This document shows positions 43,343-64,000 of a DNA stretch of 64,000 nucleotides, piece after piece. Within the stretch, counting starts at the first letter, position 1; every line of letters begins with the position of its first letter. A program made the translations under genes and the position numbers. The notes beneath the pieces were generated by a model that worked only from the letters and a program-made list of their open reading frames with translations, had not been told where the DNA came from and did not search any database. Origin of the DNA: Chloropicon primus (Eukaryota; Chlorophyta; Chloropicophyceae; Chloropicales; Chloropicaceae); assembly GCA_023205875.1 (NCBI GenBank), contig CP060755.1:1178001-1242000 (forward strand). The letters are read 5' to 3'.

Positions 43343-46300
43343 TTACTCTGGAAGCGCCAAGAACATGGCTACACCACGCCTCGTCCAGTGACCGGCGTCG
43401 CAATCGGTTGGAACCCTAATGTCACAAACGAAGTTCGTCGAGTGCCCTGTTGTGGAGAGGATTCCCCTCCTGTCTGTTGTCTTGTACAGCGGGCAGGTGT
43501 AACTCTTGCTGGCCTTGATCTTATCAATCTCCGTGGGGAACATCCATATGACGGGGAACTGCGTGAACAGAACCTTTGGCTCCGACTCGCCCAAGACGTG
43601 GTTGTCCTCGTCCCATTTGCAGGCCTCGATGAAGATTCCCTTGCAGTACACCCCGTCTTTTGGAGGCTCCTTGAACTCCTCTTCGCCGTCCCTGACGACG
43701 AAGTCCAAGTCAATCTTGTCGATTTCCACCGTGTACCGCCTGGCGTAGTTCTGCTTGCTCGCCGTGAGGAAGGCCTGAGTGAAGAAGAACCCGGGAAGCC
43801 AGAAGACCACAGGCTCGCCGTCGTTGATCCAGTCGTTGAAGAACTGGATCCTCTCCTGAACCTCCTTCACGTACGAGCCCACGGGCTTGAGGGACGGGAA
43901 GCTCCTCTTCATCCATGGAGGTGGAATCTTTCCGTCGAACAGGGCCTTGCTCGTGGTGTCAAGCTCGTCGTTCATCAGAGCCAGACCCTTCAGGGCCTTG
44001 CCGAGGTTGGTCATCGTGGACCTGACCTTCGTGAGCAGCCTGTTGAACCTGCCGAGCTCCTGCACGAGCACGGTGTTCATACTGTTGTGGTAGTCCTGTG
44101 GGAACTTTTGGCCCGCGACCTCGATGTCAAACTCAGGGGAGAGCTTGTTCAAGATCTCCTCGGTGATGCTCTGGACCGTCTCCTCGTAGGAGGACCCGCC
44201 GCCCGACGAGTCGCTGCTCTGCGTAAGCATGAGGGACTCGAGCAGCAAGTTCGATTCTTGCAAGTCCTTCGAGATATCCGCGTTGTCGTGCAGTCCGAAG
44301 ACCTCGGGCTTGGCGAGGAGGGGGAAGGATTTGATGATGTCAAGATATCCCTCGTACGCCGTCTGCTTTGGTATCTTGTACATTCCGCTGGGAGACAGGG
44401 AGTGCCCCTCCTGCAAGCAATCCTCGCTGTAGAAGGAACTCAGAAGGGTCATCAGGGTGTGCCGGTCATGCCCGTCCGTGACCTTTCCGCCGTAGTTGCA
44501 CTCTCCGCAAGTGTAGGACAATGTGGGGAACGGGACATCGTCGTACTCGTCAAGGAACATCTTGAGCTGTCGAATCGAGATCCTGAGGTCGTTCTCGTTG
44601 AACTGGTACGGGATGTTGAACCCGACCGCACCGAACTTCTTGCGCTCCACGATGACGGAGTGGAAGAACGCGAGAGAGAACATGAGCTTCCGGAACTCGC
44701 CGTCCTTGACGCACGTGTCAAAGAAGTCACTCTCGCAGACTGGATCGAGGAGATACGTTCTCAGAAGACCAGCCTTCAGACCCTTGGGGGCCTCGTTTGT
44801 CATCTTGACAGCCTTCTCCAATATAGGAATTGGGAAGAGCGGCGATGGGTAAGACGTGAGCCAAAGCCTGAAGTTCTCGTGAACTTTCCCTGGAATGAGC
44901 CTCTTCTCGGCAACGGATTCCAGCGTGGGCAAGAAACTCTTCGCGAGGTGGCAGTTCTGCAAAACGACCCAGAAGCCGTCCTTGATTCCCTGCTCGATCC
45001 ACTTCATGGCGACGGGCCCCTGACCCTGCCCAAGAGACACAGACTCGACCTTCACCTTCTCTTGATCCGCAAACCTCAGCAGGTTGGCCATCGGGTCCGA
45101 ACCTGGCGAGAGGATGAAAAGAAGCGGCGTGTACGCATCAGAGTCCTGGAAGCACGGCTCCAAGTTGAAGGGGATCGGCGCAACGTACTTCTCCCCCATG
45201 ACGTGAGACACGTAGTTTGTCACCGCGGGGATGATTTTGTCTGGCCTGAAGCTCCTCAGGACGAGGAGTTTCTGGAACTGACTCAGCTTGTCCTCCCACT
45301 GGCTGGTCAGGCGCTCGGTAGAGGGATCGGACGCGTCGTAGATAGGCTTCCACAGATCAGGGTCATTGCTGATGTCCTCCTTCAGGCCCTCGTAGTCGCT
45401 GAACGCGGAGAGTCGACACATTTCGTCCCACATCTTCGTGGAGATCCAGCCCGGAGCAGGGTTCTCGTTGGGGTTCTCGCCAAGAGCCACTCCGCCGGTC
45501 AGCAAAAATCTCAGCTGACCCGCATCGATGTTTCCTTTCGCGATCTCGAGCTTTGAGGTGAGCTGGAAAGCGAACAAAAGCTTGTCCTTCTCGAACAACG
45601 ATCTGCACACGTTCACGTAGAGGAAGTAAGTGAAGTGGTCCGCCAAAAACTTCAGTCTCTGGCTCAAGTCTTCGCTCTTCTCGCTGTCCTGGATGGACCT
45701 GACGAACAGGCTCACAAACCACGCGAGAGAGTACTGGTACATGGGGTCTATGTTAGCCAAATCGGTGACGCAGAAGAAGAGGGTCGTGCAATGCTTCGCG
45801 ATGGGCTTGTAGCCCTTCCTGGCCTCATCGATCTTGAGCTCCGTCTCGTCAGCAATTTTCTGCTTTTCAGAAATATCGTCCGACGTCATCTTCGCCTTCT
45901 GCAAGATTTCCACTGCAGCTTGATCTTCGAGAATGTTGCCCTCACTCGTGCTCAGAACCCTCAAGATCTCATCCTCGATCTCCTTGAGCTTCTTCTTGTT
46001 CTCGGCACCACTGATGATCAGCCTGTTCTTCTCCTCTTCGAGGTCTGGCCTCTCCTTTGCCACGACGATTCCAAGCAGCTGGTCCTCGAGACCCTCTGGC
46101 GTCGTGACAAAATTCAAAAGGTTCACCTTCACGCAGATCTCAGGAGGATAGTGAGGGTTCCTCAGCTTCGTCGTCATGTAGAACTTGAAGTCCTTGCTGT
46201 ATTCCACCACGGCGTCTCCAAGCTTGATGCACATGACACCACCCTGCTTGAAGAGCTGCTTCTGCAGCAAACCCTCGAGCGTGGGGTCAAGGCTCTCCCC

Positions 46301-49300
46301 AACGTTCTCCAACAGCACGGGGTTTCCGTACTGAATGCAGGTCTCCAGAGTTCTCAGGTAGTCAGAGTCAGTCAGCTTCACCACGTAAAGCTTCCTGTCC
46401 TTCTCCATGTTCCTGATCCACTTGTTCGCAAGTCCCTGCGGGTCAATGCAAAGAGGCCACCTTCTGCCGATGGTGAGGGAGATGGCATTCTCCGTGGAGA
46501 AGTCATCCTTTGGAAGGCCCTGGATGTTCCAAGCACGGATTTTGACGGGATCTCCGAGGACCTTTACGAGACTGAACGAGGGGCTGCACTGGATTCCCTC
46601 CTCCTGGCACTTTGTGATCCACTGCTCCAGGACCTCGTCGCGATAGGTTTGGGTGAAAGGGCCAAGGTAAGCAATTTGGCCAGCTCCAAGGAGACAGTCA
46701 CCGGTGAGCGCCTGGTACTGCTCCCCGAGATCGACCGCCGCTTGAGTCCATCTGGCCTTCTCACCCCCCAGACCTGCAATCAATTTCTGAGCACGGTCAA
46801 GCTTCACCTTACACAACTCCACGTCCGCCTCGAGCTGCTCCTTCTTCGCCTTTTTCTGGGTAAGATCAGCATCGAGTGCAGCCAGCTTGTCCAAGACAAC
46901 TTGGAGCTCGTCTTGCTTGATTTTCAGGGCAGCCAAGACAACCTCAAGGTCCTTCTCAGCCTGAGCCAATGCCACCTTCTTGGGTGCCACGACTTTGGCG
47001 ACCCTGTCGTAGGACTCCATTGCCCTTACCCAGCAGCAAAGTCCGAAAGCGGCTTTGGACGCCGACTTCACCTTCTCAGGGTCGAAGTCGGGGTTCTGGA
47101 CGTAGACTCTGATCTTGGTGATAATGTTCGGTGGGATGTTGTCCTTGTCGTACTCTTTCAGACTCTGAAGGAAGTTTGCCTCAATAATCAGCTTCTTCGA
47201 CGTCTCCCAGTAGTCATCAACCATCTTGCCCGAGTCCTTGTCTTTCACACGGGCTGGCTTCTGGCCCTTGATCACGCAGACTGCTTCCATTACCAGTTTC
47301 ACAACAGCTGGAGGACTCTTCATTCCCTTCACCTCAGCAATGTCTCCCTTGGTCAGAGTGTCGAGAGCCTTCAGGGCTCCCTCAAGAAGGGGCAGAGCCT
47401 CCGCGAGGTCAGATTCGCACTCCGACTTGATCGCTTGGACCTTGGCAGCTTCCTTGCTGGCTGCGCTCTCCTCCTTCTCGACGACGCTCTTGACCTTGTC
47501 CGCCTCCACGGTCTCCTTGGCAATGATTTCCATGGCTTCCTCGGTCTCCTTGGTACTCTGCACCAGCTGCGGCTGCAAGGCCACCAGCTCCTCTTGCATG
47601 GCCTGCACAGAGGACTCCGTGAATTCCAGCTTTTCGAGCCCAACCTCGTATCTCTTCTTCACCGTCATGACGCTGCCCTGCCTGTCATTCAGGACTTCCT
47701 TGTAGAACGCCAAGAGCTCCAGGTACGACGTTGGTGTGACGTAATTGATTCTTCTCATTTCGTTCTTGAACTTCGTGGAGAGCTTGTGAATACTCGAGTG
47801 GAACAGCACGACCGTCTCTTGAACGGACTTGATCACCTTGTCGTCGGGGACTGGGAGGTCGTCCAGGAACTCCGTAGCGACAGACGCGAGCGCGTCCTGT
47901 GGCCAAGCGGTGAACCAGTCGATGGTGCAGCAATTCACGAGGGCAGGGAACTTCCTCAGCCTCTCCCTGAAGTCATCTCCAACGGGGGAGAAGGACAGAA
48001 TGATGTGGAAGTTCTTCTTGATCTCCTGCAAGAAGAAGTTGTAAAGCTGAGTCCTTGTTCCGTCCATTCCCGCTTGCTTGGCTTTGACCCTAATGTTTTC
48101 AAAGATGGTGGCAAGGTCTCCGCTCACGAAGAGGTTTGGCACCTCGTACGTGTTCAGGAGATTGGAAATGTCCTCCACCATGCCCTCTTCCTTAATCTGT
48201 GTGTCAGAGAAGAGGAAGACGACCTTCTTGTTGGCTTCACCGGCCAACTTCAGGACCTTCTTCAAATCCTCGTGCCACTCCACTTTGCCGTAGGACCTTG
48301 ACATCTCCACCTGGAAGATGGTGTACTCCTCGATGAAAGCAGCGAGCTTTGCGAGACTCTGTCGTCCACTTCCGCCCAAGCCCACGAGGAGGGCGTGCCC
48401 CCCAGACATGCTGATGACCCTGCAAATGCGAGAGATGTGCTCGAGGGCAAAGAGGAAAAGAACCAACTGCATGGGACTCTTTGAGGTGGCGTTGTAGTCG
48501 CCCAAGTACTCCTGCACGATGGTAAGCAAAGCATCTGGGCTCTCGACCTCGTCGTACTTCTTAGGATCTTGCCCTGGGATCATGAAGTTCGCGAAGAGCA
48601 CCTGCCTGACCGCTTCTTGGACCGCCAGGTCCGTGTTTCCCTTGCTCACCAGCTTGTGGAACTTCTCCTTGAAGATGTTGTCGACAGTCTCGTGACACAG
48701 CTCCAGCATCCAGGACCTGTCCTCGTCGCTGACCAGACGGTCGTAGTAGACTCTGAAGGTCTCGTGCGTCCACAACCTGACCAGCTTGCCCGAATCGCTC
48801 ACGGCGTCTTCGCTGGCAACGACACCCTGGAACACCTTAGACAGATCTCTCAGGTTGAATGTGTAGTGACTCTTCGTTGGAGTCGGCAAGAGCTCCTTCT
48901 GCGCTGTCTGGTAAATGTGGATTGAGGACTGAACGAGCGGGTTCTTGAAGCGCGCCAGGGAGTCTGAGATGCTGCACTTGCTCATCCACCAGTCGACGAT
49001 GTTCGAGAAGATCAGGGAGAGCGTTTCCGTGTCGAAGGCCGCGACATTCATGACGCTGAAATGCCTCGTGAACCTGTTCGTGATGGCGTTACGTCCACCT
49101 CCTGGTGGGCCCATCGCCGCGATGAACTGGATGTCGAGCAATGTCCTGAAAGTGAGCTCCTTGCGATCGTACCAGCCGCTGTGGTCCATCCACTGCCTCA
49201 AGATCTCGATAGGTGGCTGTGCACCGTACACCTCCACCTGGGGCATGTTCACGTCATCCACGAAGATCATCATCTTCTTCCCGATTGGAGGACCGAAGAT

Positions 49301-52300
49301 ACCCTTGCGCCTCTTGTCCAGTTTGCCGTCAATGATGTCTTGCGTCATGTTGGCACTGGTCTGCGCAGAAAAGTTGCAGAGCATGGAGCTGTACTTGGTG
49401 GCGTCCATCCCGTACTGGAGGTGTTTCTTGATGTACACACTCTTTCCCGTTCCCGTCGGACCGACAAGCATGCAGTGGTGCCCATGTCGAAGGAGGATGT
49501 CGACCAAGTAGGTGTACCTCACCGTGTCGACGGTCTGGACGATGATGTCAGTGAACTCCGCTTCGGGGTCGAGAGCCTGCTTCTCGACAGTGTCCAGCCA
49601 AGGCAACCACTTTCCTTTCTTCTTCTCGAAGGTGAAGTCAAAGACACTCTTGCTGTCCGGGAAAAGCTGCACGAGCTTGACGGACGGAGCCTTGACAAAC
49701 GGCTTGAGGTTGTTCGGCGTGTCGTTCAACAGTATCTTCCTCAAGTTCTTGTCAAAGATCTTCCTGCCCTCCTCGTTCACGGAGGAGCCCACACTCCACA
49801 CGAGGGAAAACAAGAAGAGACACTGGAGCCAGCAGAAGACGAGGTTCTCGTTCATCCCCTGGATCAGCTCGGGGTCCTGGAACTCGTCGAGAAGGGACTC
49901 GAGAAGGCGGGTCAAGGACATGATGAGATTGATTTCCTGCAGCGCGACAGGCATTTTGCACATCTTGGTCACAATTCTCAACGCCGGAGGAACGAGCCAG
50001 TCAAAGAGCGAGATGATGTGCTCCTTGTGGCTTTCCGTCAGTCCAGGTGGAAGCGTGTTCATCCAGGACTCCACAGGTGGCCGCCACCCAAGCAAGCTCG
50101 GCTGGACGTAGACCATGCCGCACCTACTCACTGTGGCGGGACTGGCGACTGCCAGGTCGGCGACCTCGAAGATCATGTTCATCAGGCCCGCCATCGCAAT
50201 AATCTCACCAGAGTTCAGGCAAAGCTTCTTGTTGTCGTCCAAGACAGTGTTCATGTTTTCGATCCAGATGGCATCGACGGGGCCGTCGAACATGAGCCAC
50301 TTTCTGTCCGGCGACGTGTCTCTCGCCGCGTTTCTGAAGAGGACGGCGAGGACTCCATCGGTCCACTCCTTGGAAACAGGGTCGTCCTGACCGTACAGCT
50401 GGCCCATAGTCACGCTCTTTGGGTTGAGAACGTAGTACTTTGTCTTCTGCTCCCCGAGCAAGCCCTTGGAGTTCAAATCCGTCAAGGCCGTCGCCAGCAC
50501 CTTGTAAGCGGCCGTCTTCATTCCAAAGCTCTCTCCGACAATCATAAGACCGTGGCGGACAATGATCATCTCGTACAGCTGGATGACCTTGGTGAAGAAG
50601 GTGTCGAGGGGCTGAAGGTTGTACTTCTTGCAACTCTCCACGAGCGCCTCCTTGAACTTCACGTAGTCCGCCTGCGGCATGGAGACGCCGGGGAAGAGAT
50701 CGCTCAGAATTCCTTCGAACAGGGGAACATCCTGGTCAAGGAACTTTGGAAGGTTGACATCAATGATGGCCTTCAACATCAGAGCATCTTCTGGCTCGTT
50801 CTTCAAGTCATCGCTTCTCTTCAAGTTTCCTGCTGCCCTCAGGACAGCCATGACCGCACGCATACCGTAATCGTAATGGTCCTGGCTACTCAGCTGCTCC
50901 GAGCACAGCTTGTACGTCTGCACGAGCTTCCTGGCCATCGGGCGAGCCTCGAGGTAGCCAAAGGAGTAAAGGATGATTTCCGCGATCAGTGCGTAGTCTG
51001 GAACCATCATAGCGACGTCTCGAAAGAGGGCCTTCAAGTTGTCCGGGAGCTCCGAACGCCCGGCGTAACCTGGGTTCATCGTAATGAAGACGTTGCAGGT
51101 GAGCACGAGCTTCAGTTCAGAGCCCTCAAACGTGAACCTCTTCAGGCCGGCGGCGACTGCTCTCTGGATCGTCAAGACCTGCTGGGCGACCACGGACAGC
51201 ACCTCGAGCTCAATACGGTTGAACTCATCGAAGCACGCCCAGGCTCCAGAGCAAGCCAGACCCTTGAAAAATTTGCCCATTGCCTTGTAATCAAGGCCGT
51301 CGGAGCAATTGAAGACAACGCACTGGATCGCAAGAGCCTTTGCGAGATCTTTCGTCGTCTCCGTCTTTCCTGTACCTGCAGGCCCGGCGGGGGCTCCTCC
51401 CAGGCACATGTGGATCGCTCCCATCAAGGTTCTGTAGCAACGATCCGTGAGTGGCGTGATAACCAGTCTTCCAGAGTTGCCATAGTACTCGTAGCCATAG
51501 TACGCCTCGGCGTTGATCATCCTGACCATGATCGTCTTCGCCTTGTACCTCTTGTCGTCGTGCTCCCAGTAGTACCTCAGCTGACTCTGCCACTTGAAGT
51601 CTTTCTCCTCGGAGACACTGTCATCCGCCATGCTTTGCACGACGTCCCTAGCGTGGACATCAATGACCACGAGAGCTCCGCAAGTCTTCCTCTCGAGGGA
51701 GGACAAGTCTCCCCTCACGAGGTCTACGATCTTGTTCAGCTCCTCCGTGCACTTGGTGGAATAGTCTTGCAGACCCTTCGCACCACCACTCCTGATGGCC
51801 TCGTTCACCTCAGAAGTCCAGTGCACTTGCGAGCAGTTCAGAACGAGCTGGCCTGGCCACTCCAGAATCCACTTGCTCCTCTCAGCCCCGGTGTACGCCT
51901 CGATTGCTTCGCCTGCCACCTTGTGCAGAGCAGCCCTCATCTGCTCCTCTACTTCGAGCAGCCACACCTCCACGGCCCTCGACTTTTCGGGGTCGACAGG
52001 TTCCGGGAACGGAACCGTTTCGCCTTCAACGGAGTTCATGGCAACGATCGTTCCATCGGAATCCTGGAACTGGAGATCCTTCATGGACTCGAAGCACTTC
52101 TTGACGAAAGGCTGGACGTTCAACGGGATCTTTCCTTCCGAGAGAATCTCAAGCAGCTCGTCGTTCGACAGGAAGTAGAACCTAGGGAACGCGACCTTCT
52201 TCGTCTCAAGGAAGTCGTTGAGGCCCTTCTCGACAACGTCCAGGCACTCGTTAGCGTTCGTCAGCTTGTCAAGAAGCCCCGGTATTTTAACGATGTTCAT

Positions 52301-55300
52301 CACGATGGGGTCTGCGTGGGCAATCTCCATGATGTCTCTCCAGGTCAAGTCCATGTCCCTGAAGGCCCCTCCCTCTTTCGGGATCTGCTTCATGATCTCC
52401 TCCGATCCGAAGATGGGCTCAAGGTAAATCCACTTGGATTGGCACTTCAACCACTGGTCCAGGATATCCTGCAACAGCAGCAGCGTCTTCTCCCAGGGGT
52501 CCAGCCTCTCCTTGAACGGAACAGCGAACGGACTACCCGTCATCGCTTGGGTCTTCACGATGTGGTCGTCAAGAAGGGTCTGGGCCTCGTCCACGGGACC
52601 TCCCTTCAGGATGTAGGTTCCGGTCTCCTTCCAATCGGCAGAATCAAGAGTGATGCCGTTCCACTCCTCGTCCATCTTGTCCAGGGTCTTCTCCAGAGTC
52701 CACTCCCTGCTCGCGAAGTCGCTCACCTCCTGGATCTTCTCGTAGTGCACCGCGATTTGGCGGTCCAGGAGCCTACTGAAGCTGGTCGTCTCATCCTTCT
52801 TCATCTCAAACCCAACGATCTCCGAGAGCTTGGCCCAGTGACGAGCGCGCAGGCCCTCGTTGCAGATTGCCGACATGAGCGGAAGGTTCTCCTGAAACTT
52901 TTTGATCTTATCGATCGTGGTGTTGGCGGCAAGCAGGGGCTTCTCCAATTCAGGCCCCCCGGCGGAGCCTCCGAAGATCTTGCACAGCTTGTACATTCTC
53001 CTGAACTGCTCTCCGACGTCGGCGGTGATCTCCTCCGGGTCCAGCTTGGAGAAGGGGCCGTTCATCCAGTCGGCATAGTTGTCGTAGAACTGCGCCGAGA
53101 TGTTCCACAAGTTGAGGAACGGATCAAGCTTTGTGATCAGCTGGTTGACCTTGGTGAATTTCGTGACAGGCCAGCCGAAAAGCTTCTCGAGCCTGTTGAT
53201 CTCCTCGGACTCTTCCACGGCAACCGAAAGCTTTTGGCTTATCGTCGACGCCTCCGTCGAGATCTGGTTCTTTCTCAGCATGTCCTTCTCGGAACCGAGC
53301 TCCTCGTACAGCAAGATCTCCTCCTCGTACTTCAGGAGAGTCTCGCTGAACTTGGAACGCCTGCCCTTTAGCTCATCCTCGAAAGATCTGTGCTCCTGAG
53401 TGGCCTTTTGGGTCGCCTTTCTCATGATCTCGACCATATTCTTGGGCCACTCGTACGTCTTCATCGCCAAGGAAAAGTCGCTCTCCTGGGTCGCGAATCG
53501 ATAGTTGAACAAAAACGATTCGTTGGACTTGTTCTCGGCGATCTGGCGCTGCAACTCGTCCTGCTCCCCGACGCTGCGCTTGATGTACGCTTTGAGGTCG
53601 AGCACGTCCTCGGCAGTCTTGGAGGACTTTGTGATCTCCGAGTAGATGGTGCTGTACGCGTCGCAGATCTGGAGGTTGCTCTCCCGAATCTTTGAGCAGA
53701 TCTGGTCCAGGAGCTTGTTCGCGATGTCCTTGGCTTTGTTCGAGAGGGACGTCTTCAGGCCCACGCAGTCGATGAGGTACAATCCTGTCCTCACTTCGTT
53801 CGTGCAAATGTTCTGAACCGTCTCTGAAGCGTCCATGTACTTGTCGATGGTTTCTCCGTATTCCTCGATCGAGTGCCCCTCCGAGTCGTACTCGACGAGG
53901 AACTTGTCCAGGTCCATGGAGAGAATGTACAGGTAGTCATCGAAGAGCTCAAGCAGCTTCTTTGGAGCGGTGGCGTTCCTCTGCAGGACCGTGGACACCT
54001 GGTCCAGGGCGTTTGACACGGCGTCCGACTCTAGCGACAGCGCGCTGATGTGAACGTTGCGTCGCGAGCCGGCGGCCATTCCCACCTTGGGAATTCCCAT
54101 GACCGCCTGAATGAAGCCCTCCATGATCTTGCAGACGCAGTCCTCGACTTCGGAGAACGAGGGTTCGTACACTGGGAGGCACTCGTCCTTGACGTGCAAC
54201 TTGAGCCTGAACAGGGGCGACCGCGCCCAGAGCAGCGTGTCTCCCGTCGGATCAATCTCGTCCACGGGCTCGTACGTTTCTAGGAACCTGACGTACTCCC
54301 TCATGCTTCCGAGGACCAGCCCATGCAACTGGTTCGACTGAAGAATCGAGATGGAACGGTAGTAAGCCTCCGCATCTCCGTTGATGCAGATGGGAATGAT
54401 GCGTCTGAAAACGTCTCCGTTCTTTGGCAGCCAACTCGTGTAGAGCAGGCCGCGCATGTGCTCGCAGCACCGAACCTCGAACTCCTGAAAGTCGTGGACG
54501 GTGAACGGAAGTTTGCTGAGGAAATCGGAGCTCGACACGTCCACCAGGAGCCTGTGCTCGAAGTGGATGTGCCAGATGTTCGAGAGCTCTATCGCGTTCC
54601 TCGACAGGGTCTGCAGAGTCCACGCGATCCTCTCCCTGGACTCGTCCACGTTGTCGTGCCACTCGTAGGGCAACTCACGCCAGACCACCTCCCTCGTTCT
54701 CGTCTTCTGCAGGTTCTCCAGGTGGGTGAGGGGCATCTCTAGAGGCTGAATGAACAGCCTGTCCCTCTCTATCCTGTCCTTGACCACGTAGTCCACGATC
54801 GCCTTCTTCGCGCTGTACCTGTAGTCCCTGTCAATATCCTCCAAGCTCTCACTGATCAGATTGTCGTAGTACTCCTGGGAGACGTTCCTCGGTGGAGAGG
54901 AAGGCACCAAGCTGAAGATCACCGTCTTCCAGAACTCTTGGTACGGTGCAAGGTACTCCTCACTGATGCCGTGCTCGATGTAGTAGTGGTACTTCATGAT
55001 GGCCTCTCTGATCGCATCCTTCTGATCCGTCTGCAGATCGCTCGTCGTGAGCTCCCATTTGTTGTCGGACTCGCCGTCCAGCGGCGAGTCGGGGGACTTG
55101 GACCTCCCCTTCACTCTCTTTGCTTTCTTTTGACCATTCGCGGACACTTTGACCTCCTCGAAAAGCTTGCCGGCAGCAAACTTTGACTTTGGAGACAGCT
55201 TCGTGCCAATCCTGTTGGACGGCGAGTGGTAAAACAAGTCGTTGATGTCGCCGAAGCACACGGTCTTGGTGAAGAGGGCCTGCTCGTTCAGGAGCGGAGG

Positions 55301-55480
55301 CAAGCTGTGGCTGACGTTTTTAAGCAAGTCCGCCAAAGCCTTCTCCTGGTTCTGAACGTACTTTGGCGGGTCCTCGTGATACCCATTCACGTTCGTCTTC
55401 ACGCTCGACAAGTCGAAGATGAGCTTCTCGGAGAGCTTATCCTCCTCCTTCGAGAACGGGTCTTCCATGGCGCGTTCCAT
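43343..55480 (-). CDS. axonemal inner-arm dynein heavy chain
   Basis: Motor subunit of a single-headed inner-arm axonemal dynein (DNAH3/7/12-like by length and the AAA2 loop). A single 12.1-kb exon encodes 4,045 residues. After the tail (1-1300) come six AAA modules with four P-loops: AAA1 GPAGTGKT (about 1365), AAA2 GESFGMKT (about 1650), AAA3 GPTGTGKS (about 2007) and AAA4 GLGGSGRQ (about 2370). CFDEFNRIELEVLSVVAQQ follows AAA1. The coiled-coil stalk and microtubule-binding domain lie near 2600-2900, and the C-terminal domain ends GVAMFLALPE. The start is the ATG at 55480 (MERAMEDP); the open frame upstream is leader sequence. TGTAA on this strand is at 43317-43313. Confidence 0.96.
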   Translation of the reverse strand: MERAMEDPFSKEEDKLSEKLIFDLSSVKTNVNGYHEDPPKYVQNQEKALADLLKNVSHSLPPLLNEQALFTKTVCFGDINDLFYHSPSNRIGTKLSPKSKFAAGKLFEEVKVSANGQKKAKRVKGRSKSPDSPLDGESDNKWELTTSDLQTDQKDAIREAIMKYHYYIEHGISEEYLAPYQEFWKTVIFSLVPSSPPRNVSQEYYDNLISESLEDIDRDYRYSAKKAIVDYVVKDRIERDRLFIQPLEMPLTHLENLQKTRTREVVWRELPYEWHDNVDESRERIAWTLQTLSRNAIELSNIWHIHFEHRLLVDVSSSDFLSKLPFTVHDFQEFEVRCCEHMRGLLYTSWLPKNGDVFRRIIPICINGDAEAYYRSISILQSNQLHGLVLGSMREYVRFLETYEPVDEIDPTGDTLLWARSPLFRLKLHVKDECLPVYEPSFSEVEDCVCKIMEGFIQAVMGIPKVGMAAGSRRNVHISALSLESDAVSNALDQVSTVLQRNATAPKKLLELFDDYLYILSMDLDKFLVEYDSEGHSIEEYGETIDKYMDASETVQNICTNEVRTGLYLIDCVGLKTSLSNKAKDIANKLLDQICSKIRESNLQICDAYSTIYSEITKSSKTAEDVLDLKAYIKRSVGEQDELQRQIAENKSNESFLFNYRFATQESDFSLAMKTYEWPKNMVEIMRKATQKATQEHRSFEDELKGRRSKFSETLLKYEEEILLYEELGSEKDMLRKNQISTEASTISQKLSVAVEESEEINRLEKLFGWPVTKFTKVNQLITKLDPFLNLWNISAQFYDNYADWMNGPFSKLDPEEITADVGEQFRRMYKLCKIFGGSAGGPELEKPLLAANTTIDKIKKFQENLPLMSAICNEGLRARHWAKLSEIVGFEMKKDETTSFSRLLDRQIAVHYEKIQEVSDFASREWTLEKTLDKMDEEWNGITLDSADWKETGTYILKGGPVDEAQTLLDDHIVKTQAMTGSPFAVPFKERLDPWEKTLLLLQDILDQWLKCQSKWIYLEPIFGSEEIMKQIPKEGGAFRDMDLTWRDIMEIAHADPIVMNIVKIPGLLDKLTNANECLDVVEKGLNDFLETKKVAFPRFYFLSNDELLEILSEGKIPLNVQPFVKKCFESMKDLQFQDSDGTIVAMNSVEGETVPFPEPVDPEKSRAVEVWLLEVEEQMRAALHKVAGEAIEAYTGAERSKWILEWPGQLVLNCSQVHWTSEVNEAIRSGGAKGLQDYSTKCTEELNKIVDLVRGDLSSLERKTCGALVVIDVHARDVVQSMADDSVSEEKDFKWQSQLRYYWEHDDKRYKAKTIMVRMINAEAYYGYEYYGNSGRLVITPLTDRCYRTLMGAIHMCLGGAPAGPAGTGKTETTKDLAKALAIQCVVFNCSDGLDYKAMGKFFKGLACSGAWACFDEFNRIELEVLSVVAQQVLTIQRAVAAGLKRFTFEGSELKLVLTCNVFITMNPGYAGRSELPDNLKALFRDVAMMVPDYALIAEIILYSFGYLEARPMARKLVQTYKLCSEQLSSQDHYDYGMRAVMAVLRAAGNLKRSDDLKNEPEDALMLKAIIDVNLPKFLDQDVPLFEGILSDLFPGVSMPQADYVKFKEALVESCKKYNLQPLDTFFTKVIQLYEMIIVRHGLMIVGESFGMKTAAYKVLATALTDLNSKGLLGEQKTKYYVLNPKSVTMGQLYGQDDPVSKEWTDGVLAVLFRNAARDTSPDRKWLMFDGPVDAIWIENMNTVLDDNKKLCLNSGEIIAMAGLMNMIFEVADLAVASPATVSRCGMVYVQPSLLGWRPPVESWMNTLPPGLTESHKEHIISLFDWLVPPALRIVTKMCKMPVALQEINLIMSLTRLLESLLDEFQDPELIQGMNENLVFCWLQCLFLFSLVWSVGSSVNEEGRKIFDKNLRKILLNDTPNNLKPFVKAPSVKLVQLFPDSKSVFDFTFEKKKGKWLPWLDTVEKQALDPEAEFTDIIVQTVDTVRYTYLVDILLRHGHHCMLVGPTGTGKSVYIKKHLQYGMDATKYSSMLCNFSAQTSANMTQDIIDGKLDKRRKGIFGPPIGKKMMIFVDDVNMPQVEVYGAQPPIEILRQWMDHSGWYDRKELTFRTLLDIQFIAAMGPPGGGRNAITNRFTRHFSVMNVAAFDTETLSLIFSNIVDWWMSKCSISDSLARFKNPLVQSSIHIYQTAQKELLPTPTKSHYTFNLRDLSKVFQGVVASEDAVSDSGKLVRLWTHETFRVYYDRLVSDEDRSWMLELCHETVDNIFKEKFHKLVSKGNTDLAVQEAVRQVLFANFMIPGQDPKKYDEVESPDALLTIVQEYLGDYNATSKSPMQLVLFLFALEHISRICRVISMSGGHALLVGLGGSGRQSLAKLAAFIEEYTIFQVEMSRSYGKVEWHEDLKKVLKLAGEANKKVVFLFSDTQIKEEGMVEDISNLLNTYEVPNLFVSGDLATIFENIRVKAKQAGMDGTRTQLYNFFLQEIKKNFHIILSFSPVGDDFRERLRKFPALVNCCTIDWFTAWPQDALASVATEFLDDLPVPDDKVIKSVQETVVLFHSSIHKLSTKFKNEMRRINYVTPTSYLELLAFYKEVLNDRQGSVMTVKKRYEVGLEKLEFTESSVQAMQEELVALQPQLVQSTKETEEAMEIIAKETVEADKVKSVVEKEESAASKEAAKVQAIKSECESDLAEALPLLEGALKALDTLTKGDIAEVKGMKSPPAVVKLVMEAVCVIKGQKPARVKDKDSGKMVDDYWETSKKLIIEANFLQSLKEYDKDNIPPNIITKIRVYVQNPDFDPEKVKSASKAAFGLCCWVRAMESYDRVAKVVAPKKVALAQAEKDLEVVLAALKIKQDELQVVLDKLAALDADLTQKKAKKEQLEADVELCKVKLDRAQKLIAGLGGEKARWTQAAVDLGEQYQALTGDCLLGAGQIAYLGPFTQTYRDEVLEQWITKCQEEGIQCSPSFSLVKVLGDPVKIRAWNIQGLPKDDFSTENAISLTIGRRWPLCIDPQGLANKWIRNMEKDRKLYVVKLTDSDYLRTLETCIQYGNPVLLENVGESLDPTLEGLLQKQLFKQGGVMCIKLGDAVVEYSKDFKFYMTTKLRNPHYPPEICVKVNLLNFVTTPEGLEDQLLGIVVAKERPDLEEEKNRLIISGAENKKKLKEIEDEILRVLSTSEGNILEDQAAVEILQKAKMTSDDISEKQKIADETELKIDEARKGYKPIAKHCTTLFFCVTDLANIDPMYQYSLAWFVSLFVRSIQDSEKSEDLSQRLKFLADHFTYFLYVNVCRSLFEKDKLLFAFQLTSKLEIAKGNIDAGQLRFLLTGGVALGENPNENPAPGWISTKMWDEMCRLSAFSDYEGLKEDISNDPDLWKPIYDASDPSTERLTSQWEDKLSQFQKLLVLRSFRPDKIIPAVTNYVSHVMGEKYVAPIPFNLEPCFQDSDAYTPLLFILSPGSDPMANLLRFADQEKVKVESVSLGQGQGPVAMKWIEQGIKDGFWVVLQNCHLAKSFLPTLESVAEKRLIPGKVHENFRLWLTSYPSPLFPIPILEKAVKMTNEAPKGLKAGLLRTYLLDPVCESDFFDTCVKDGEFRKLMFSLAFFHSVIVERKKFGAVGFNIPYQFNENDLRISIRQLKMFLDEYDDVPFPTLSYTCGECNYGGKVTDGHDRHTLMTLLSSFYSEDCLQEGHSLSPSGMYKIPKQTAYEGYLDIIKSFPLLAKPEVFGLHDNADISKDLQESNLLLESLMLTQSSDSSGGGSSYEETVQSITEEILNKLSPEFDIEVAGQKFPQDYHNSMNTVLVQELGRFNRLLTKVRSTMTNLGKALKGLALMNDELDTTSKALFDGKIPPPWMKRSFPSLKPVGSYVKEVQERIQFFNDWINDGEPVVFWLPGFFFTQAFLTASKQNYARRYTVEIDKIDLDFVVRDGEEEFKEPPKDGVYCKGIFIEACKWDEDNHVLGESEPKVLFTQFPVIWMFPTEIDKIKASKSYTCPLYKTTDRRGILSTTGHSTNFVCDIRVPTDCDAGHWTRRGVAMFLALPE

Positions 55481-56365: not shown

Positions 56366-59300
56366 ATGCACCCGAGAGGAAATGCTTTGCACGAGAAGCT
56401 CAGGGCAGCTTTGGAGGGAAGGGACGCCAAGCTGCTCAGGGAGGCCTTCGGGGATATTTGCAGTGTGATGACTGAGCCGGAGATCTTCCAGCCCAAGTGC
56501 CTGCCCTACGGAACGCCCTCCTGCATCTCGGCCCTCGTCATATGCTCGGAGTGCGCCTTGAAGCTGGGAGACATAGACATTGCCGAGCACTGTAACGTCA
56601 AGTACTTCGAGCACTCGCACCAGTATGTTCAACAGGGTGAGGAAGGTTGCGTGAAACCGATAGCGATAGAGAACCAGTGGAAAATCAGAGCGCTTTACAT
56701 CGCGGGGATCCTGCAGTACGAGAAGAACAAGCACAAGAAGGGCCAGAAGCTGAGGGACAGCGTACTGAGCGCCCTCCAAAACATAGTCGATGGGATCACT
56801 GCAGCCAGGAAGAGCAACAGGTACAAGTTTTTGGTCTACAACGGCAGCATTCACTTCTGGCAGATAGGTCGCTGCCTCATGAAGGAGGGGGTCCGGTTCA
56901 TGCTTCAACCTCTGGGCAAGGTCGTCGTGGACGCGCTGGCTGATCTGCCGGAGGGAAAGGAGGACTGGAAAGCGAGCTGCCTCGTGAACTACTCTTTGTG
57001 CCTCCAGGAAATCGGGAAGCTGGACGAGGCCATCCAGGTCGTGACGGAGGCCTGCCAATGCGTCACGAAGAGCACGAACGTGGGTTTGAAGTCCCTCACA
57101 TTAGGGCTCAAGACCCACCTCCTGCAGAAGGCAGGGAAAATCAGCGACAAGGACAAGAAGACGGGGGACGAGGAGAGCGAAGCGTTGATCCTCTTGCAAG
57201 CGGTCAAGTCGTCGAAGCTTTCCCCCGAAGAGACTGAGAAGAGTCTGAACGAGCTGCTCGAGAAGGTTAAGGGCTCTGAAGCGGCGAACGACTTCGTGGC
57301 CAACATCGGTTGGGTTGCGTACACGCAAGGGGCCATGGGGATCGCCGAGTCGTCTGCGCTCGTTGCCAAGGAGAACGCAAAAGACCCGCTTGCGCGACTT
57401 CGGGCAGATCTTACCCTGCAAGCTCTTGAGCTGCACCAAGCGGACCCCGGGAAAGCTCACAGGAAGAATGTTGAGGCAATCTCAAAGTTTGACGAGACGC
57501 TGAGCTCTCTGATCAGGATAGGAGACGCGAGCGCGATTCAGGACTGCTGTATTCTCATATGGAACGCCGGCCTCGTGCTGCAAAAGCCGACTTCGAGGAA
57601 ATTCATCATGCACCCTTTCTCGAACGCCGTCTCGATCCTCGACAAAATGGGATCGCCGCTCGTGAAGCTCAGAGTGCAGTTTCACCTCGAGCTCACGAAA
57701 GGAAGCCTGGAGAACAACTACTTGTCGAACGCTGCAAAGCATGCTGACAAGGGATATCACTTGTATGAGACGTTCCTCAACAAGGGTCAGGGGGACAAGG
57801 GAAATGGGTCGCAGACGACGTTGGCCAAGACCATTACCGAGTTGAAAAAGATCGTGGACATGAAATCAAACAAGCAGGTGGACAAGATAGACCCGTACGC
57901 CGCGGACAAGGAACTCGATTACGGCAAGCTCGGGGATTGCGTGATCCAAGCGGTGGAAAATGCTTTGAACGCCAAGTCGCAAGTGGAGAAGGAGGAGATT
58001 CTCACGGAAGCTATGCATCTAGTGGACAACGCGACTCGTTCACAGGCCGAGGCGGAGGACGCGAAGCCTGAATCGAGCGAGGAAGCCGAGGAGGGCGAGG
58101 ACGCGGAGGGATCCCAGGAAGAGGCACAGGAGGAGAAGGAGCTCCAACCCGAGGAAATTGATCTCATGCAGAAACAGGTCGTGCTCTGGGGCCACATCGT
58201 CCAGTCTGCCTGGGCAGCGAAGCTTGACAAGATTGTCAGGAATGCCGCCATGCATGTCTTCCCTGAGTTCAGGTTTCAGAAGGAGACTCACCCCGAGGCC
58301 ATCAAGGTCCAAATCTCCGCCTCCTACGCGGACGCGGAATCTTGCATGTTCACGCTCCACAATAAGGGTCTGCGTCTCGACCCTCCTGTGGGCACCAACC
58401 CCATCGACGCAAATCCAGGCAAGCCGCCTGAAGAGATCGCTACGGATGACGACCTTCTCGTCCGGGCTTGCTCCCAGTTCATTCGCGGAGTGAAGCTTTC
58501 CATATCCCTGGGGAACTACACCCGAGCGTTGAACGGCGCGATTTACATCTGGAACGCGTTCTCGAGCTACATCGACATCACTTCTGGAGAGGAGTACGAC
58601 AAGATCGTCCCGATCATGTCCGTCCTCTTGAAGCAGCTTCTGAAGATTCCCAGGGACAAGCAGGACAAGGAGCTCCTTTGTAAGATATGCAACACTCTCG
58701 CTTGCGGACTTGAGCACAAAGTTCTGATCAGCTGGTCCACCAGCTCCAGCAGGAGTTACCAAGTCCTGCTGATCGAGCTTAGCAAGCACAAGACGCTCAA
58801 TCTCTCGGACCAGGACACCAAACTCGTCGAGGAAGCTTTGGAGTCCTGCGAATCGGTGATTTCCATGCTTGGCGAGGATTGTGACAGCCTCCTTTTCGCT
58901 ACTTGCGCGAGGCTCGTCCGGCTGTCAGGAAAGTCTCCGACAGTGAAGCCGGGGCAGGCGTTCGAGAGCACGAGGGAGAACATCTCGTTCGTCGTCCACG
59001 TGATCGAGCAGACTCAAAACAAGATCCTGGTGGGCAGAACACGGAAGGAGGCCCTCAAAGATGCGATCAAAGCGGTGACGAAGCTGAAGAAACCTTTCTA
59101 CGACCTTTTGGTTCAGATTGCGAGGGTGTCCTTGGAGATGAACGAGACGCACGCGGCGATCGAGTCCTCGGAGGAGTGCCTGAAAATGCTGGAGCTCGCC
59201 AACATCAAGGACGGGTCCGTGAAACAGACCGATCGGACAAAGTACGAGTGGTATATCGCGAGTGCCTGCGAGATGATGGGAGGGGAAGCCTCCCTGCAAG

Positions 59301-62300
59301 TCAGGCAACTGGACAAGCAGGAGAGGTCGGTCCAGCTCCACATTTACAAGATCGCTGGCGACAAGTTTCTCAAAGCTGTCAAGTACGCTTACTACGCCAA
59401 CCATCAGGACATGGTGCTCAGAGCAGGCAGGTTGTTCTGGAACTCCGTGCTGAGCTTGATGAACAACCCGGAAGAAAGGAGGTTGATTGTCGAGAGCCTC
59501 GAGGAGATGTTCTCCTACATCGACTCCTCGGCAATCTACTCGAAAGATCGAAACCTCTGCGTTTTGGTGGTGAGGGCTCTGCTGGAATCCTACACCGAGG
59601 AGGGAAGCTGGGACCAGGGCCTGAAGAGGCTGACAGCAGCTTTCAGGATCTTGCCTCAGAGCGAGCACCTCAGCCTGTGGAAGACAAGGACCTACCTCCT
59701 CATCAACGCGGGGCTGAATCCGATGAACGACGACGTGAAGGACCACTCCGAGGACATCAAAGCAGAGCTTTGGCTGATTGTGGCCAGGAACAGCTACAAC
59801 AGGGAGGATCAGTACTCGGCCTATCTGGAAGCGTGCAATTGCTTCCCGCAGGACCCGATCAAGAGCGCGAAATATTGGTTGACTCTGGCAGAGTGGCTGC
59901 TCGAGCAGAGCGTGCCTCAAGGCGACATCACCCACGTGCTGAACAAGGCCTCTTCGCTACTGCTTACGGCAACGAGCTCCAAGGCTGCGCCTAGTGCCGA
60001 CAAAATCATCTGCAGGACAGGGGAGCCGGACATCTTCCTGGAGGGCTGTTCGATCTGCCAGATCAGCGTTCTCCTCCACCTGTTTGTCTTGAAAATGCAA
60101 GTGGTAGCGACCTACAAGGAACGGCACTACATGGCCATGTGCGCCACGGCTTGCTGCAAGTACCTCATGCTGAACGGATTCCACGCCAGCTGCGTCAGGG
60201 GAAACTCCACGAGCGAGTCCACGTTCCCCCACAAGTGGGATGAGTGGGTAAAGACTTTCTTGGAGGAGGATGCCCCTCGCGATTGGATCGTGTGCGTGCA
60301 AGAGGAGCTTTTGTACAAGGGTTCCGCAATCTACAAAGACCTCAAGTCCCTGGCCGACGCCTTGTTCGAGATGAAAGACTATGGCTACGGCCTCAAGGTG
60401 TCCTGGCTCCTCGTGCTGGTCGAGGAGGCTCTCGGCGACGAGTGCGAGACGCTTGGGTACATCTACGCTTCCAAGATTTTCAAGGCCGCGGGCATGCCCG
60501 AGACTGTGAAGACGGTCGAAGGGCTCATCGAAAGAAAGCTGGAGGAGCTCAAGAACAGGAACTTGCCTGCAGCAGACTTGATCGCCCAAGAGGACGAGGG
60601 GATACAGTCGTGGTCTCCGGTTTTGACGTTTTTGGCTTACGTGGAGCACTACATGTCGAGGGACATGTTCAGCTTCGCGGCAAAGTTGCTGATGTTCGTC
60701 AAGGAGAAGTTCAACGTCGCGGACTCGGCCACTTCGGTGCAGTTGAAGTTCTACCTGCTCGCTGCAAAGATAGAAGTGTCCTTCAACAGGTTCGAGTCCG
60801 CGGCTCTGAACCTGGCCAAGGTCCGCGACGTGGGCAAAGTGAGGGGAAGCCTCAAGTTTTGGAAAGACTACATTGCTCTGTACATCGACGTGAAGCTCGG
60901 GCAGGGGCAGGTCTCGCAGCAGCTTCACACTGACCTAGAGAACGTGAGGTCCATACTGCAGATGGTCTCCGATAACAGGTCGAACACGATAGCCTCGTAC
61001 GAGACCAAGGAGACTCTCGCCCAGCTTTACAGGAGGGACGCTGAATTGTATTTCTTGGAGGCGAGCGAGATGGAAAAGTCCCGCAGATCAGCTGACAAGG
61101 CGAAGCAAAAGTATTTCGAGGCATTCTCGATGCTCGACTGTGCCTGCGAGGCACTGAAGGAGACGGGAAGTCCGCTGTACATCGAAGTGGAGCTGCTTCA
61201 CGTGAAGGCTCTCTGGAGAAAGGCGAAGGAGGACAAGTCAAAGGACATTCTCCAGCTGATCGTGGAGCTCCTTTCGAACTCGGAGAAGCAGCTGATTGAG
61301 ATCCTGCAGTGCAAGTTGGGCCACGCGGACAGCAAGGACGTCAATGGAGTGCACTCGAGGGCGAACGGCTTCATGCCATACTTTAGGAACTTGGGCGAGA
61401 TCCGAGCGATTCTGGGCGTCGCCAGGCTCCAGATCGACGTTCTCACCGAGAATTACAACGACGGCAAGTGGGACCACCTTCCCTCCTTCCCCAAAGTGGA
61501 CGGGAAAGACGCGGCTTGTGTGGAAGAGTTCCTTTCAGAAAACCTGGGCAGCGTGGCAGGCAGGGCCATCATGGCCACCAGCGAGCTTGCCGGGCTCCTG
61601 GCCGACGACAGTTACCAGCTGTGCGCCGAGATCACCAAGTACAGAGCCTTGGCTCTCAGTCTCTTTGGCCTCAGCATGGCACACAAAACGAAGGACGGGG
61701 AGTCGCCACTGGGGTCCCAAGCGATATCGGCGCTGCAAGCGAGCTTCAAGCTATCCATCAAAGCAAATGACATGGAAACTGCACTGAGTACCGCGGAGAG
61801 TCTCATGGGGTTGTACCTGAGGGCCGACAGAGCCATGGACGCGTCCCTGCAACTGTTCCTGATACAGAGCTGCAAGTTCAGCCTCCAAGTTCCTCGCATC
61901 GTCGAGAATGCTTGCGACTCTGCGGACAAGTACCGCCTCCTCCTGCAATCGAGGGAGAAAATGGTGAGAGACCTCTTGCTGCCCTACGAATCAGAGGTGT
62001 TCAAGAAGGTTGATAAGCAGCTCAACAGCATGGACGAAGTCGTCTCGCACCTGAACATGAACTTGCCAAGGGCAGAGATCACAAAGTCTCTTCCCGAGGA
62101 CACCGTCTTCGTGTCTTTCCACATCGGCAAAGGCATCCACGATCCCTTTGAAGACAGTCACTTGTACGTAGCGTGCATGAAGAAGGGCAAGGACGGAGGC
62201 GAGGATGTCGAGGCCCAAGTCGAGAGAATGGCTTACGAGAAGAAGGACTGGGATCGTTTCTTCGGAATGTTGTCATTGTGGAAAGCGAAGTCATCCAAGT

Positions 62301-63421
62301 TCCTGAAGGACAATCACGTGTACGTCGACAAGGAAATGCAGAAGCCAGCTCAAGAAGCCGGGTCAGGCTCGGGCTCAGAGAACGAGGCCCCCGAAGACCC
62401 AACCATCCCAAAGTCGTACCACGTCAACGCGAGGGAGATCCTCACGGAGGGCTGGAAGGAAGTCTTGAGCGAAGCAGGGGCCTTGCTGGAGCCCTTGATG
62501 GGCACCGTGAGAGCTGCACTGGGAATTAAGGGCAAGGGCGCGTCTGAAGCGGTGGAAGAGGAAGGCGGTGAAGAAGGCGGGGCCGACGCAAAGGAAGCCG
62601 AAGCTGACGCAGCTCCTGAGCAGATTCCGCTGAACATTTGCCTCTGCGTGGACGCCGCCCTGTCCATGATTCCTTTCGAGGCCCTGGATGAATTCAGCCA
62701 GTGCGTCTCCGTCAGCAGGAACCCGTGCCTGATCAGCTTCTGTCTCTTGAACCAGCAACTGGAGGCCTCCTCGCCGGGGGGGAAAGCGAGCGTGTGCTCC
62801 AAGGACTTCAACAAGCTCAAGTTCATTGTCGATCCCAAGGGGCAGTTCCCACAGGGCGGCAAGGAGGACGACGAGAAGGAGGGGGACATCTGCCACTTTT
62901 TCGAGAACAACCTGCAGAAGCAATTCAAGGAGTGGGAAGGCATCATTGGCAGGAGCTCGATGAATATTGGGGAGACTTACATCGAGCAAGTGTACGACAA
63001 CTGCGTCTCTTTGATGTGCATCACCCCTGGGCGCTTCTCGCACGTGTTCACTCCAAAGGCAATCAAGCACACCAACCTGAAGAACTGCAGGATGGGCTTC
63101 TTGTTCGACCAGTGCATCAGTGAGAATGCCTTCCTCGAGGAGAAGAATTTGAGGCAGAGGCAAGTCCTGGAGGATCACTACGATGTCTCCACCTTCCTGA
63201 TGCTTCAGGGCGTCAAGAGCGTCGTGGTGAACTCCATGACGACAACGAACCTGTCGTGCTGCAAATTCATTGAAGGATTCGTCGAGTCCCTCAACAGCGG
63301 CAAAGGCCTAGCAGCGTCTGTCAAAGAGTCTGGCTCCCTTCTTCAAGCGGTGCCGGACCTGCCTCCGCACATCCCTTTCACTCAGGTGGTCTACGGGCTC
63401 CCAAACTTGACGATAAAATAA
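56366..63421 (+). CDS. CFAP46: CFAP46 (FAP46), central-pair C1d projection protein
   Basis: Scaffold of the C1d projection of the ciliary central pair. A single 7.06-kb exon gives 2,351 residues, mostly TPR-like helical repeats throughout residues 1-1990, with acidic linkers (about 560-595 and 1995-2080). The N-terminus follows the family (MHPRGNALHEKLRAALEGRD, MTEPEIFQPKCLPYGTPS). The last ~260 residues form a separate alpha/beta domain that I read as a CHAT/separase-like fold (CLCVDAALSMIPFEAL, FLFDQCISENAF, MLQGVKSVVVNSM). The start is the ATG at 56366; GTG-based extension upstream was not accepted. The stop is 25 nt from the convergent NVL gene. Confidence 0.92.
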   Translation: MHPRGNALHEKLRAALEGRDAKLLREAFGDICSVMTEPEIFQPKCLPYGTPSCISALVICSECALKLGDIDIAEHCNVKYFEHSHQYVQQGEEGCVKPIAIENQWKIRALYIAGILQYEKNKHKKGQKLRDSVLSALQNIVDGITAARKSNRYKFLVYNGSIHFWQIGRCLMKEGVRFMLQPLGKVVVDALADLPEGKEDWKASCLVNYSLCLQEIGKLDEAIQVVTEACQCVTKSTNVGLKSLTLGLKTHLLQKAGKISDKDKKTGDEESEALILLQAVKSSKLSPEETEKSLNELLEKVKGSEAANDFVANIGWVAYTQGAMGIAESSALVAKENAKDPLARLRADLTLQALELHQADPGKAHRKNVEAISKFDETLSSLIRIGDASAIQDCCILIWNAGLVLQKPTSRKFIMHPFSNAVSILDKMGSPLVKLRVQFHLELTKGSLENNYLSNAAKHADKGYHLYETFLNKGQGDKGNGSQTTLAKTITELKKIVDMKSNKQVDKIDPYAADKELDYGKLGDCVIQAVENALNAKSQVEKEEILTEAMHLVDNATRSQAEAEDAKPESSEEAEEGEDAEGSQEEAQEEKELQPEEIDLMQKQVVLWGHIVQSAWAAKLDKIVRNAAMHVFPEFRFQKETHPEAIKVQISASYADAESCMFTLHNKGLRLDPPVGTNPIDANPGKPPEEIATDDDLLVRACSQFIRGVKLSISLGNYTRALNGAIYIWNAFSSYIDITSGEEYDKIVPIMSVLLKQLLKIPRDKQDKELLCKICNTLACGLEHKVLISWSTSSSRSYQVLLIELSKHKTLNLSDQDTKLVEEALESCESVISMLGEDCDSLLFATCARLVRLSGKSPTVKPGQAFESTRENISFVVHVIEQTQNKILVGRTRKEALKDAIKAVTKLKKPFYDLLVQIARVSLEMNETHAAIESSEECLKMLELANIKDGSVKQTDRTKYEWYIASACEMMGGEASLQVRQLDKQERSVQLHIYKIAGDKFLKAVKYAYYANHQDMVLRAGRLFWNSVLSLMNNPEERRLIVESLEEMFSYIDSSAIYSKDRNLCVLVVRALLESYTEEGSWDQGLKRLTAAFRILPQSEHLSLWKTRTYLLINAGLNPMNDDVKDHSEDIKAELWLIVARNSYNREDQYSAYLEACNCFPQDPIKSAKYWLTLAEWLLEQSVPQGDITHVLNKASSLLLTATSSKAAPSADKIICRTGEPDIFLEGCSICQISVLLHLFVLKMQVVATYKERHYMAMCATACCKYLMLNGFHASCVRGNSTSESTFPHKWDEWVKTFLEEDAPRDWIVCVQEELLYKGSAIYKDLKSLADALFEMKDYGYGLKVSWLLVLVEEALGDECETLGYIYASKIFKAAGMPETVKTVEGLIERKLEELKNRNLPAADLIAQEDEGIQSWSPVLTFLAYVEHYMSRDMFSFAAKLLMFVKEKFNVADSATSVQLKFYLLAAKIEVSFNRFESAALNLAKVRDVGKVRGSLKFWKDYIALYIDVKLGQGQVSQQLHTDLENVRSILQMVSDNRSNTIASYETKETLAQLYRRDAELYFLEASEMEKSRRSADKAKQKYFEAFSMLDCACEALKETGSPLYIEVELLHVKALWRKAKEDKSKDILQLIVELLSNSEKQLIEILQCKLGHADSKDVNGVHSRANGFMPYFRNLGEIRAILGVARLQIDVLTENYNDGKWDHLPSFPKVDGKDAACVEEFLSENLGSVAGRAIMATSELAGLLADDSYQLCAEITKYRALALSLFGLSMAHKTKDGESPLGSQAISALQASFKLSIKANDMETALSTAESLMGLYLRADRAMDASLQLFLIQSCKFSLQVPRIVENACDSADKYRLLLQSREKMVRDLLLPYESEVFKKVDKQLNSMDEVVSHLNMNLPRAEITKSLPEDTVFVSFHIGKGIHDPFEDSHLYVACMKKGKDGGEDVEAQVERMAYEKKDWDRFFGMLSLWKAKSSKFLKDNHVYVDKEMQKPAQEAGSGSGSENEAPEDPTIPKSYHVNAREILTEGWKEVLSEAGALLEPLMGTVRAALGIKGKGASEAVEEEGGEEGGADAKEAEADAAPEQIPLNICLCVDAALSMIPFEALDEFSQCVSVSRNPCLISFCLLNQQLEASSPGGKASVCSKDFNKLKFIVDPKGQFPQGGKEDDEKEGDICHFFENNLQKQFKEWEGIIGRSSMNIGETYIEQVYDNCVSLMCITPGRFSHVFTPKAIKHTNLKNCRMGFLFDQCISENAFLEEKNLRQRQVLEDHYDVSTFLMLQGVKSVVVNSMTTTNLSCCKFIEGFVESLNSGKGLAASVKESGSLLQAVPDLPPHIPFTQVVYGLPNLTIK

Positions 63422-63446: not shown

Positions 63447-64000
63447 TTATTCTTCTTCTTTGGCGCTCCCGCTTCGGCTTCTCGAGTTCACTCCTCTGGC
63501 TCTCCTCAGCTTTCCTCTCAACTTCTCGTACAGCTGCTCATCCGTGCGGGACACGCTAGGCTTCACATTGGCGAGAGCAGTTTTCAGGTGGCCTTCTCCG
63601 ACGGCCAGGGCGTCGCTCTTGAGCGCAGCGACAGCGGATTCTCGCACCAAGGCCGCAATATCTGCTCCGCTAAAGCCGCTGCAAGCATCGCTCGCCAAGA
63701 CGCTCTTCCAGTCCAGACCTGGTTGCACAGGAACCTTTTGAAGGCACGTCTCCATGATGGAGACCCTTTCCCCTCCCTTTGGGAGGGGCACGTACAACAG
63801 CTTGTCCAGTCTCCCCGGGCGAAGCAAGGCGGGATCGATGATGTCAGGGCGATTCGTGGTGGCGATCAGGTAAACCTGCGACCTGCTATCTGTGCCGTCC
63901 ATCTCGGTCAACAGCATGTTGACCACCCTCTCTGACGCCGCATTCCCGCTGTCTCCTCCGCGCCGAGGAGCAAGGGCGTCGAGCTCATCGAAGAACAGCA
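63447..64000 (-). CDS. NVL/RIX7-type AAA ATPase, 3' end only
   Basis: Nuclear VCP-like ATPase that removes factors from maturing 60S ribosomal precursors. Only the C-terminal ~184 codons lie in the window; the gene continues past the right edge. Visible parts are the D2 Walker B (LFFDELDALAPRRGG), the second region of homology (NMLLTEMDG, ATTNRPDIIDPALLRPGRLD), the small helical domain (FSGADIAALVRESAVAAL) and the NVL-type tail (KPSVSRTDEQLYEKLRGKLRRARG-like). The tail favours NVL/CDC48C over CDC48 or FtsH. It ends in an acidic AKEEE. Confidence 0.88.
   Translation of the reverse strand, partial: LFFDELDALAPRRGGDSGNAASERVVNMLLTEMDGTDSRSQVYLIATTNRPDIIDPALLRPGRLDKLLYVPLPKGGERVSIMETCLQKVPVQPGLDWKSVLASDACSGFSGADIAALVRESAVAALKSDALAVGEGHLKTALANVKPSVSRTDEQLYEKLRGKLRRARGVNSRSRSGSAKEEE

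Follow-up and report, generated by a model that had tools for sequence, protein, structure and literature searches.

The C-terminus of CFAP46 in Chloropicon primus: probably a separase-type protease domain that is no longer able to cut

The question raised by this locus is what kind of domain closes CFAP46 (FAP46), a protein of the ciliary central apparatus, and whether that domain can still act as a protease. The window, a stretch of 64,000 nucleotides from the green alga Chloropicon primus (contig CP060755.1, positions 1,178,001 to 1,242,000), contains a single open frame at 56366..63421 on the forward strand, stop codon included, encoding 2351 aa; all features of this gene given below lie on the same strand. 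An earlier note, made from the sequence alone, had assigned the frame to CFAP46, and this was borne out along the protein: a whole-protein scan matched the Pfam family TPR_CFAP46_N (PF25439) at residues 5-176 (56378..56893) with E 1.8e-18 (67.2 bits, cut-off 27), and the solved chains of Chlamydomonas FAP46 (7n6g, E 8.5e-60) and CFAP46 (9ijj, E 5.4e-19) were each matched over several stretches, the former extending over residues 2027-2316. The gene product is CFAP46, a long tetratricopeptide repeat (TPR) solenoid of the C1d projection. According to the part of a 2021 review that was available (PMC7999657), CFAP46 is a C1d component, and C1d is missing in fap46 mutants. The C-terminal 491 aa give a single match in the genome of the alga itself (17.58 Mb, 20 contigs).

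Separase is the protease that lets chromosomes separate, and the C-terminus of CFAP46 is, with good probability, a protease domain of this type (clan CD) that has lost the ability to cut. The domain (C50/CHAT, clan CD) covers residues ~1900-2351 (62063..63418): the region described in the earlier note stands as its C-terminal part, but the full domain is larger. An acidic stretch of low confidence at residues 2058-2083 (187-212 of the model, 62537..62614, pLDDT <50) would act as a disordered linker joining two halves, and the second, catalytic-type half spans residues 2087-2351 (62624..63418). The predicted fold is that of the caspase-hemoglobinase group, nearest to the protease domain of separase, so that the comparison proposed in the earlier note as a refutation test came out in its favour; the caspase-like fold of TPR-CHAT proteins is also recognisable. 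A Foldseek search also found the solved orthologues 7n6g (E 4.6e-16) and 9ijj (E 5.5e-14), both chains containing the domain, and the separase-type nature of the fold can be taken as practically certain.

At the level of sequence, the case for separase rests on the family, because the window sequence by itself stays under the curated cut-offs: residues 1860-2351 matched Peptidase_C50 with E 0.0054 (16.4 bits, cut-off 27.8) and CHAT (PF12770) with E 0.016 (15.1 bits, cut-off 24), and the Pfam scan of the whole window protein listed neither. Three homologue searches, which scored only the candidates sharing most words (7986, 7987 and 7990), yielded 40 proteins including that of the window, referred to here by P-numbers (P0001 etc.). 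The C-terminal counts cover 36 of them, P0017, P0034, P0037 and P0040 having been excluded by eye as lacking an alignable C-terminal domain; these 36 are not independent, since the birds, the fishes and P0001-P0004 are closely related. Routine annotation is enough to pick up the similarity, as 10 of the 40 homologues carry a precomputed Pfam C50 label. P0006 matched C50 with E 4.1e-11 (43.1 bits, over the same cut-off) and CHAT with E 2.9e-5, and among 12 C-termini scanned at E<=0.01 C50 was matched by nine and CHAT by two. Of the 13 distinct PDB sequences that a profile of those 12 C-termini (A4), P0013 and P0014 among them, retrieved at E<=1, ten were separases (E 2e-10 to 1e-6), two were CFAP46 and the last was a chance match. 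The profile match to C50/separase, the other refutation test of the earlier note, is significant for the family, but not for the window sequence alone. In NCBIfam, neither the window protein nor P0006 had a match, and P0013 had a single chance match.

The genome of C. primus encodes a separate separase (L002, G000:C5:1034484-1035563), with the motifs YFGHG and LMGCSS intact. Aligned to it with hhalign (193, 236 and 206 aligned columns, respectively, over the catalytic-type half), the CFAP46 alignment gave E 1.2e-7 with the dyad-bearing rows included, E 5.6e-7 without them, and E 2.4e-8 (score 70.7) when built from 34 dyad-less rows; the reversed separase scored 16.3, the best of 50 shuffles 25.3, and the negative control CFAP54 had an hhalign probability of 0.3. 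Weighing against this kinship, a plain hidden Markov model built from the 36 C-termini scores the own separase at only 7.2 bits. Chance resemblance was ruled out by the fold search, the profile search, the reversed and shuffled controls and the CFAP54 negative control. A viral origin of the domain was also considered and rejected, BFVD having no match at E<=0.001 (best E 4.5e-3); P0013, compared with viral contigs to trace its lineage, had no match there.

The motifs in CHAT order quoted by the earlier note are all in place in the translation, and a CHAT-family domain acquired separately from bacteria, no particular kin of separase, is an alternative reading. Such an origin is very improbable: besides the preponderance of C50 matches, every CHAT chain ranks below the separases in both Foldseek lists, 13 of 15 separase entries stand above the best CHAT row in Z, and the PDB profile search at E<=1 contained no CHAT-named chain. 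Furthermore, the protein ends as separases do, with QVVYGLP at residues 2340-2346 (63383..63403), where the own separase has PVYYGLP and the Chaetomium separase VVYGIP, the Gly being kept in 35 and the Pro in 33 of the 36 C-termini. Of the proposed CHAT/separase-like ending, the separase-type fold holds, but both sequence and fold bring the domain closer to separase (C50) than to CHAT. No further CHAT proteins were found in the genome with PF12770 at E<=1, in searches where both PF12770 and C50 missed the C-terminus of CFAP46 itself. TPR-CHAT (Csx29) of the CRISPR Craspase (PF12770) matches the domain more weakly than most separases do, and its dyad H585/C627 is active and serves bacterial defence, as described in the accessible part of PMC9729208, unlike the window domain with its missing His.

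The catalytic site was read with P0013 as anchor for the His and Cys columns. In the window, the His loop reads CITPG, with Pro2221 (63026..63028) opposite the His of the separase YFGHG; over the family, the His column holds H in two C-termini, M in 12, P in seven, T and F in three each, and L, G, A, S, Q or I in the other nine. The Cys column holds C in two, D in 29, G in two, and E, S and M in one each, the spacing between both sites being 27 in 33 of the 36, as in the Chaetomium separase (26 in the own separase). The orthologues of Chlamydomonas and mouse (7n6g, 7sqc, 9ijj), whose solved chains include the domain, have likewise lost the His, replaced by Val and Met respectively, and have Asp at +27. 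The loss of the His is consistent across all alignments checked, and the usual catalysis is precluded in any register of the Cys because this His is absent; the window domain is almost certainly catalytically dead. The reading of TPG for THG as a lost dyad is upheld for the 34 of 36 C-termini devoid of the His, that of the window among them, but two CFAP46, P0013 and P0014, retain both residues.

The place of the nucleophile is the point on which the alignments differ. The gap-free alignment with P0013 gives Asp2248 (63107..63109), 27 residues past the His site, and the Cys site is likely taken by this conserved Asp. A rival register, in which the site is Cys2250 (63113..63115), two residues further on, so that the nucleophile would be kept and the His alone lost, draws on the A4 profile alignment, which pairs the catalytic Cys of the Chaetomium separase with position three of the DRA/DQC triplet, on the strand of the window model, which reaches residue 2250, and on the Cys itself, invariant in P0001-P0004 and with counterparts in Chlamydomonas FAP46 and P0008. 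It is nevertheless unlikely, given the prevailing spacing of 27, the P0006 model, in which the Asp immediately follows the strand, the lack of a Cys at that place in P0005, and hhalign, which points to a third register, Gln2249. With a tolerance of three residues in each direction, the 34 dyad-less C-termini include eight that have a Cys around the Cys site and four that have a His around the His site, P0003 being the one sequence with both. After the Asp, many dyad-less CFAP46s have a stretch like DRAENxxSYRRQSKLDNxK, mostly lost in the group of the window.

In addition to the dyad, residues of the substrate pocket were compared. Glu2105 of the PFEAL motif (62678..62680), aligned with the glutamate of the separase PWES motif, is kept in 35 of the 36 C-termini. 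D2151 (of the Chaetomium enzyme), LWD and WDVTD of separase were followed in 14 CFAP46 rows and two separases taken from the 40-row alignment: in what we take, by residue numbering, to be the D2151 column, none of the 14 rows examined has Asp, P0008 having Glu. The window has no WDVTD, and at the place of LWD it reads NSM and mouse CFAP46 NQW, Chlamydomonas FAP46 being also devoid of the W. In separase, the PWES glutamate anchors the P1-Arg according to a modelling paper (PMC4626109, in part), and D2151 reads it (PMC9729208, likewise in part).

Judged by the residues present, 'dead' would not apply universally across CFAP46, since the alignment of C-termini suggested by the earlier note does reveal His and Cys in two of 36. 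P0013 and P0014 are clusters drawn from ENA, with 18 and 135 members; they are 85% identical and read YFGHG ... LLAC where separases read YFGHG ... LMGC, with the same spacing of 27 as the Chaetomium enzyme. Both are genuine CFAP46, having TPR_CFAP46_N and scoring 200.6 and 182.3 bits against the profile of the 34 dyad-less C-termini. Both also exceed the C50 cut-off of 27.8 (37.2 and 28.6 bits), and BLASTP sets P0013 on the own separase His on His and Cys on Cys (E 0.004, single comparison). These features could mean that some lineages have a CFAP46 that still acts as a protease, the dyad of P0013 and P0014 cutting an axonemal or assembly partner, which is distinctly unlikely: WDVTD and the P1-Arg-reading Asp (in the column placed by residue numbering) are missing from both. 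The absence of D2151 is a weak argument either way because TPR-CHAT cuts without a counterpart of it, as stated in the part of PMC9729208 available.

The trees bear on the same point. A C-terminal tree of 27 sequences (24 of the 36 C-termini, Chlamydomonas FAP46 and two separases as root) unites all CFAP46 rows in one clade (100/100) and groups P0013 and P0014 with P0007, Chlamydomonas FAP46 and the window group (81/88); a quick full-length tree (29 of the 40 rows) places them with P0007 (83) and then with the window group (99). The dyad may thus have been regained or be due to chance, because the best tree nests both among dyad-less sequences. Forcing them together with the separases costs 3.55 log-likelihood units and is not rejected (p-AU, approximately unbiased test, 0.079), so that both retention of the dyad, with repeated loss elsewhere, and its regain are compatible with the data. 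Less probable still is that P0013 and P0014 are a live separase-like protease in the central apparatus, the last holders of an activity of the common CFAP46 ancestor, while elsewhere, in the window too, the domain would be a frozen pseudoprotease whose Cys site is occupied by Asp.

For the window protein, the preferred reading remains a separase-type domain without activity. CFAP46 and separase would share a TPR-protease ancestor. Separase, too, has a TPR-like helical solenoid (PMC5921967, available in part) ahead of a clan-CD protease domain in two parts, in which the PFEAL/PWES motif, the succession of His loop and Cys strand, and the VVYGxP end recur; it differs in its catalytic His, in its Cys where the window likely has Asp, in its WDVTD and in not being a ciliary protein. 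The protease part of CFAP46 may have turned into a rigid end module closing the solenoid and docking it onto its C1d neighbours; a structural or docking role is reasonably likely. The remnant substrate cleft, with Glu2105 kept, might grip a partner peptide without cleavage, which is a doubtful, though conceivable, suggestion. Mouse CFAP46 is connected to SPAG6, LRRC43 and CFAP74, as reported in the accessible portion of PMC12297659. Dead proteases of flagella have a precedent in the metacaspase MCA4 of Trypanosoma brucei, a caspase-fold protein tabulated as a pseudopeptidase in the part of PMC3499766 available; it differs in belonging to the flagellar membrane and to the metacaspase rather than the separase type, and the likeness is one of description.

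As regards the surroundings of the gene, a dynein heavy chain (43343-55480, reverse strand, one open frame, 4045 aa, with DHC_N2, AAA_6, MT stalk and Dynein_C) stands head to head with CFAP46 across a gap of 885 bases, as if both had a common promoter region. Antisense to the dynein gene, a 1436-aa open reading frame starting with ATG (49061-53371, forward strand) probably results from GC-rich codon usage. On the other side, an AAA-ATPase-like gene (LFFDELDALAPRRGG..., judged by eye; 63447-64000, reverse strand) converges with CFAP46, its stop codon (63447-63449) lying 25 bases past that of CFAP46. CFAP54, a C1d partner, is found elsewhere in the genome (L003/L004, G000:C16:339474-340001). Chloropicon has been described without flagella; if this is true, a retained flagellar gene set would be notable.

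In the literature searched, no paper tied CFAP46 to a CHAT domain or FAP46 to separase, although structure papers outside that coverage may mention it. Among the papers listed by wider searches, FAP46 and 'pseudopeptidase' met in one, PMC3499766, in the available part of which the word concerns MCA4 and the FAP46 row has a dash for the domain. The main text of PMC9113940, which describes C1d as predominantly helical, contains protease, caspase and CHAT zero times each, and that of PMC12297659 peptidase, separase and caspase zero times each. The table of the 2021 review, in the part available, also has a dash for the FAP46 domain (PMC7999657), and a fold can now be named for this part of the C1d projection. 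The family of the chromosome-separation protease is linked in this way to a structural flagellar protein, an automatic 'Peptidase C50' label should not be taken as a sign of separase activity in a CFAP46, and the intact dyad of P0013 and P0014 poses a directly testable question of activity.
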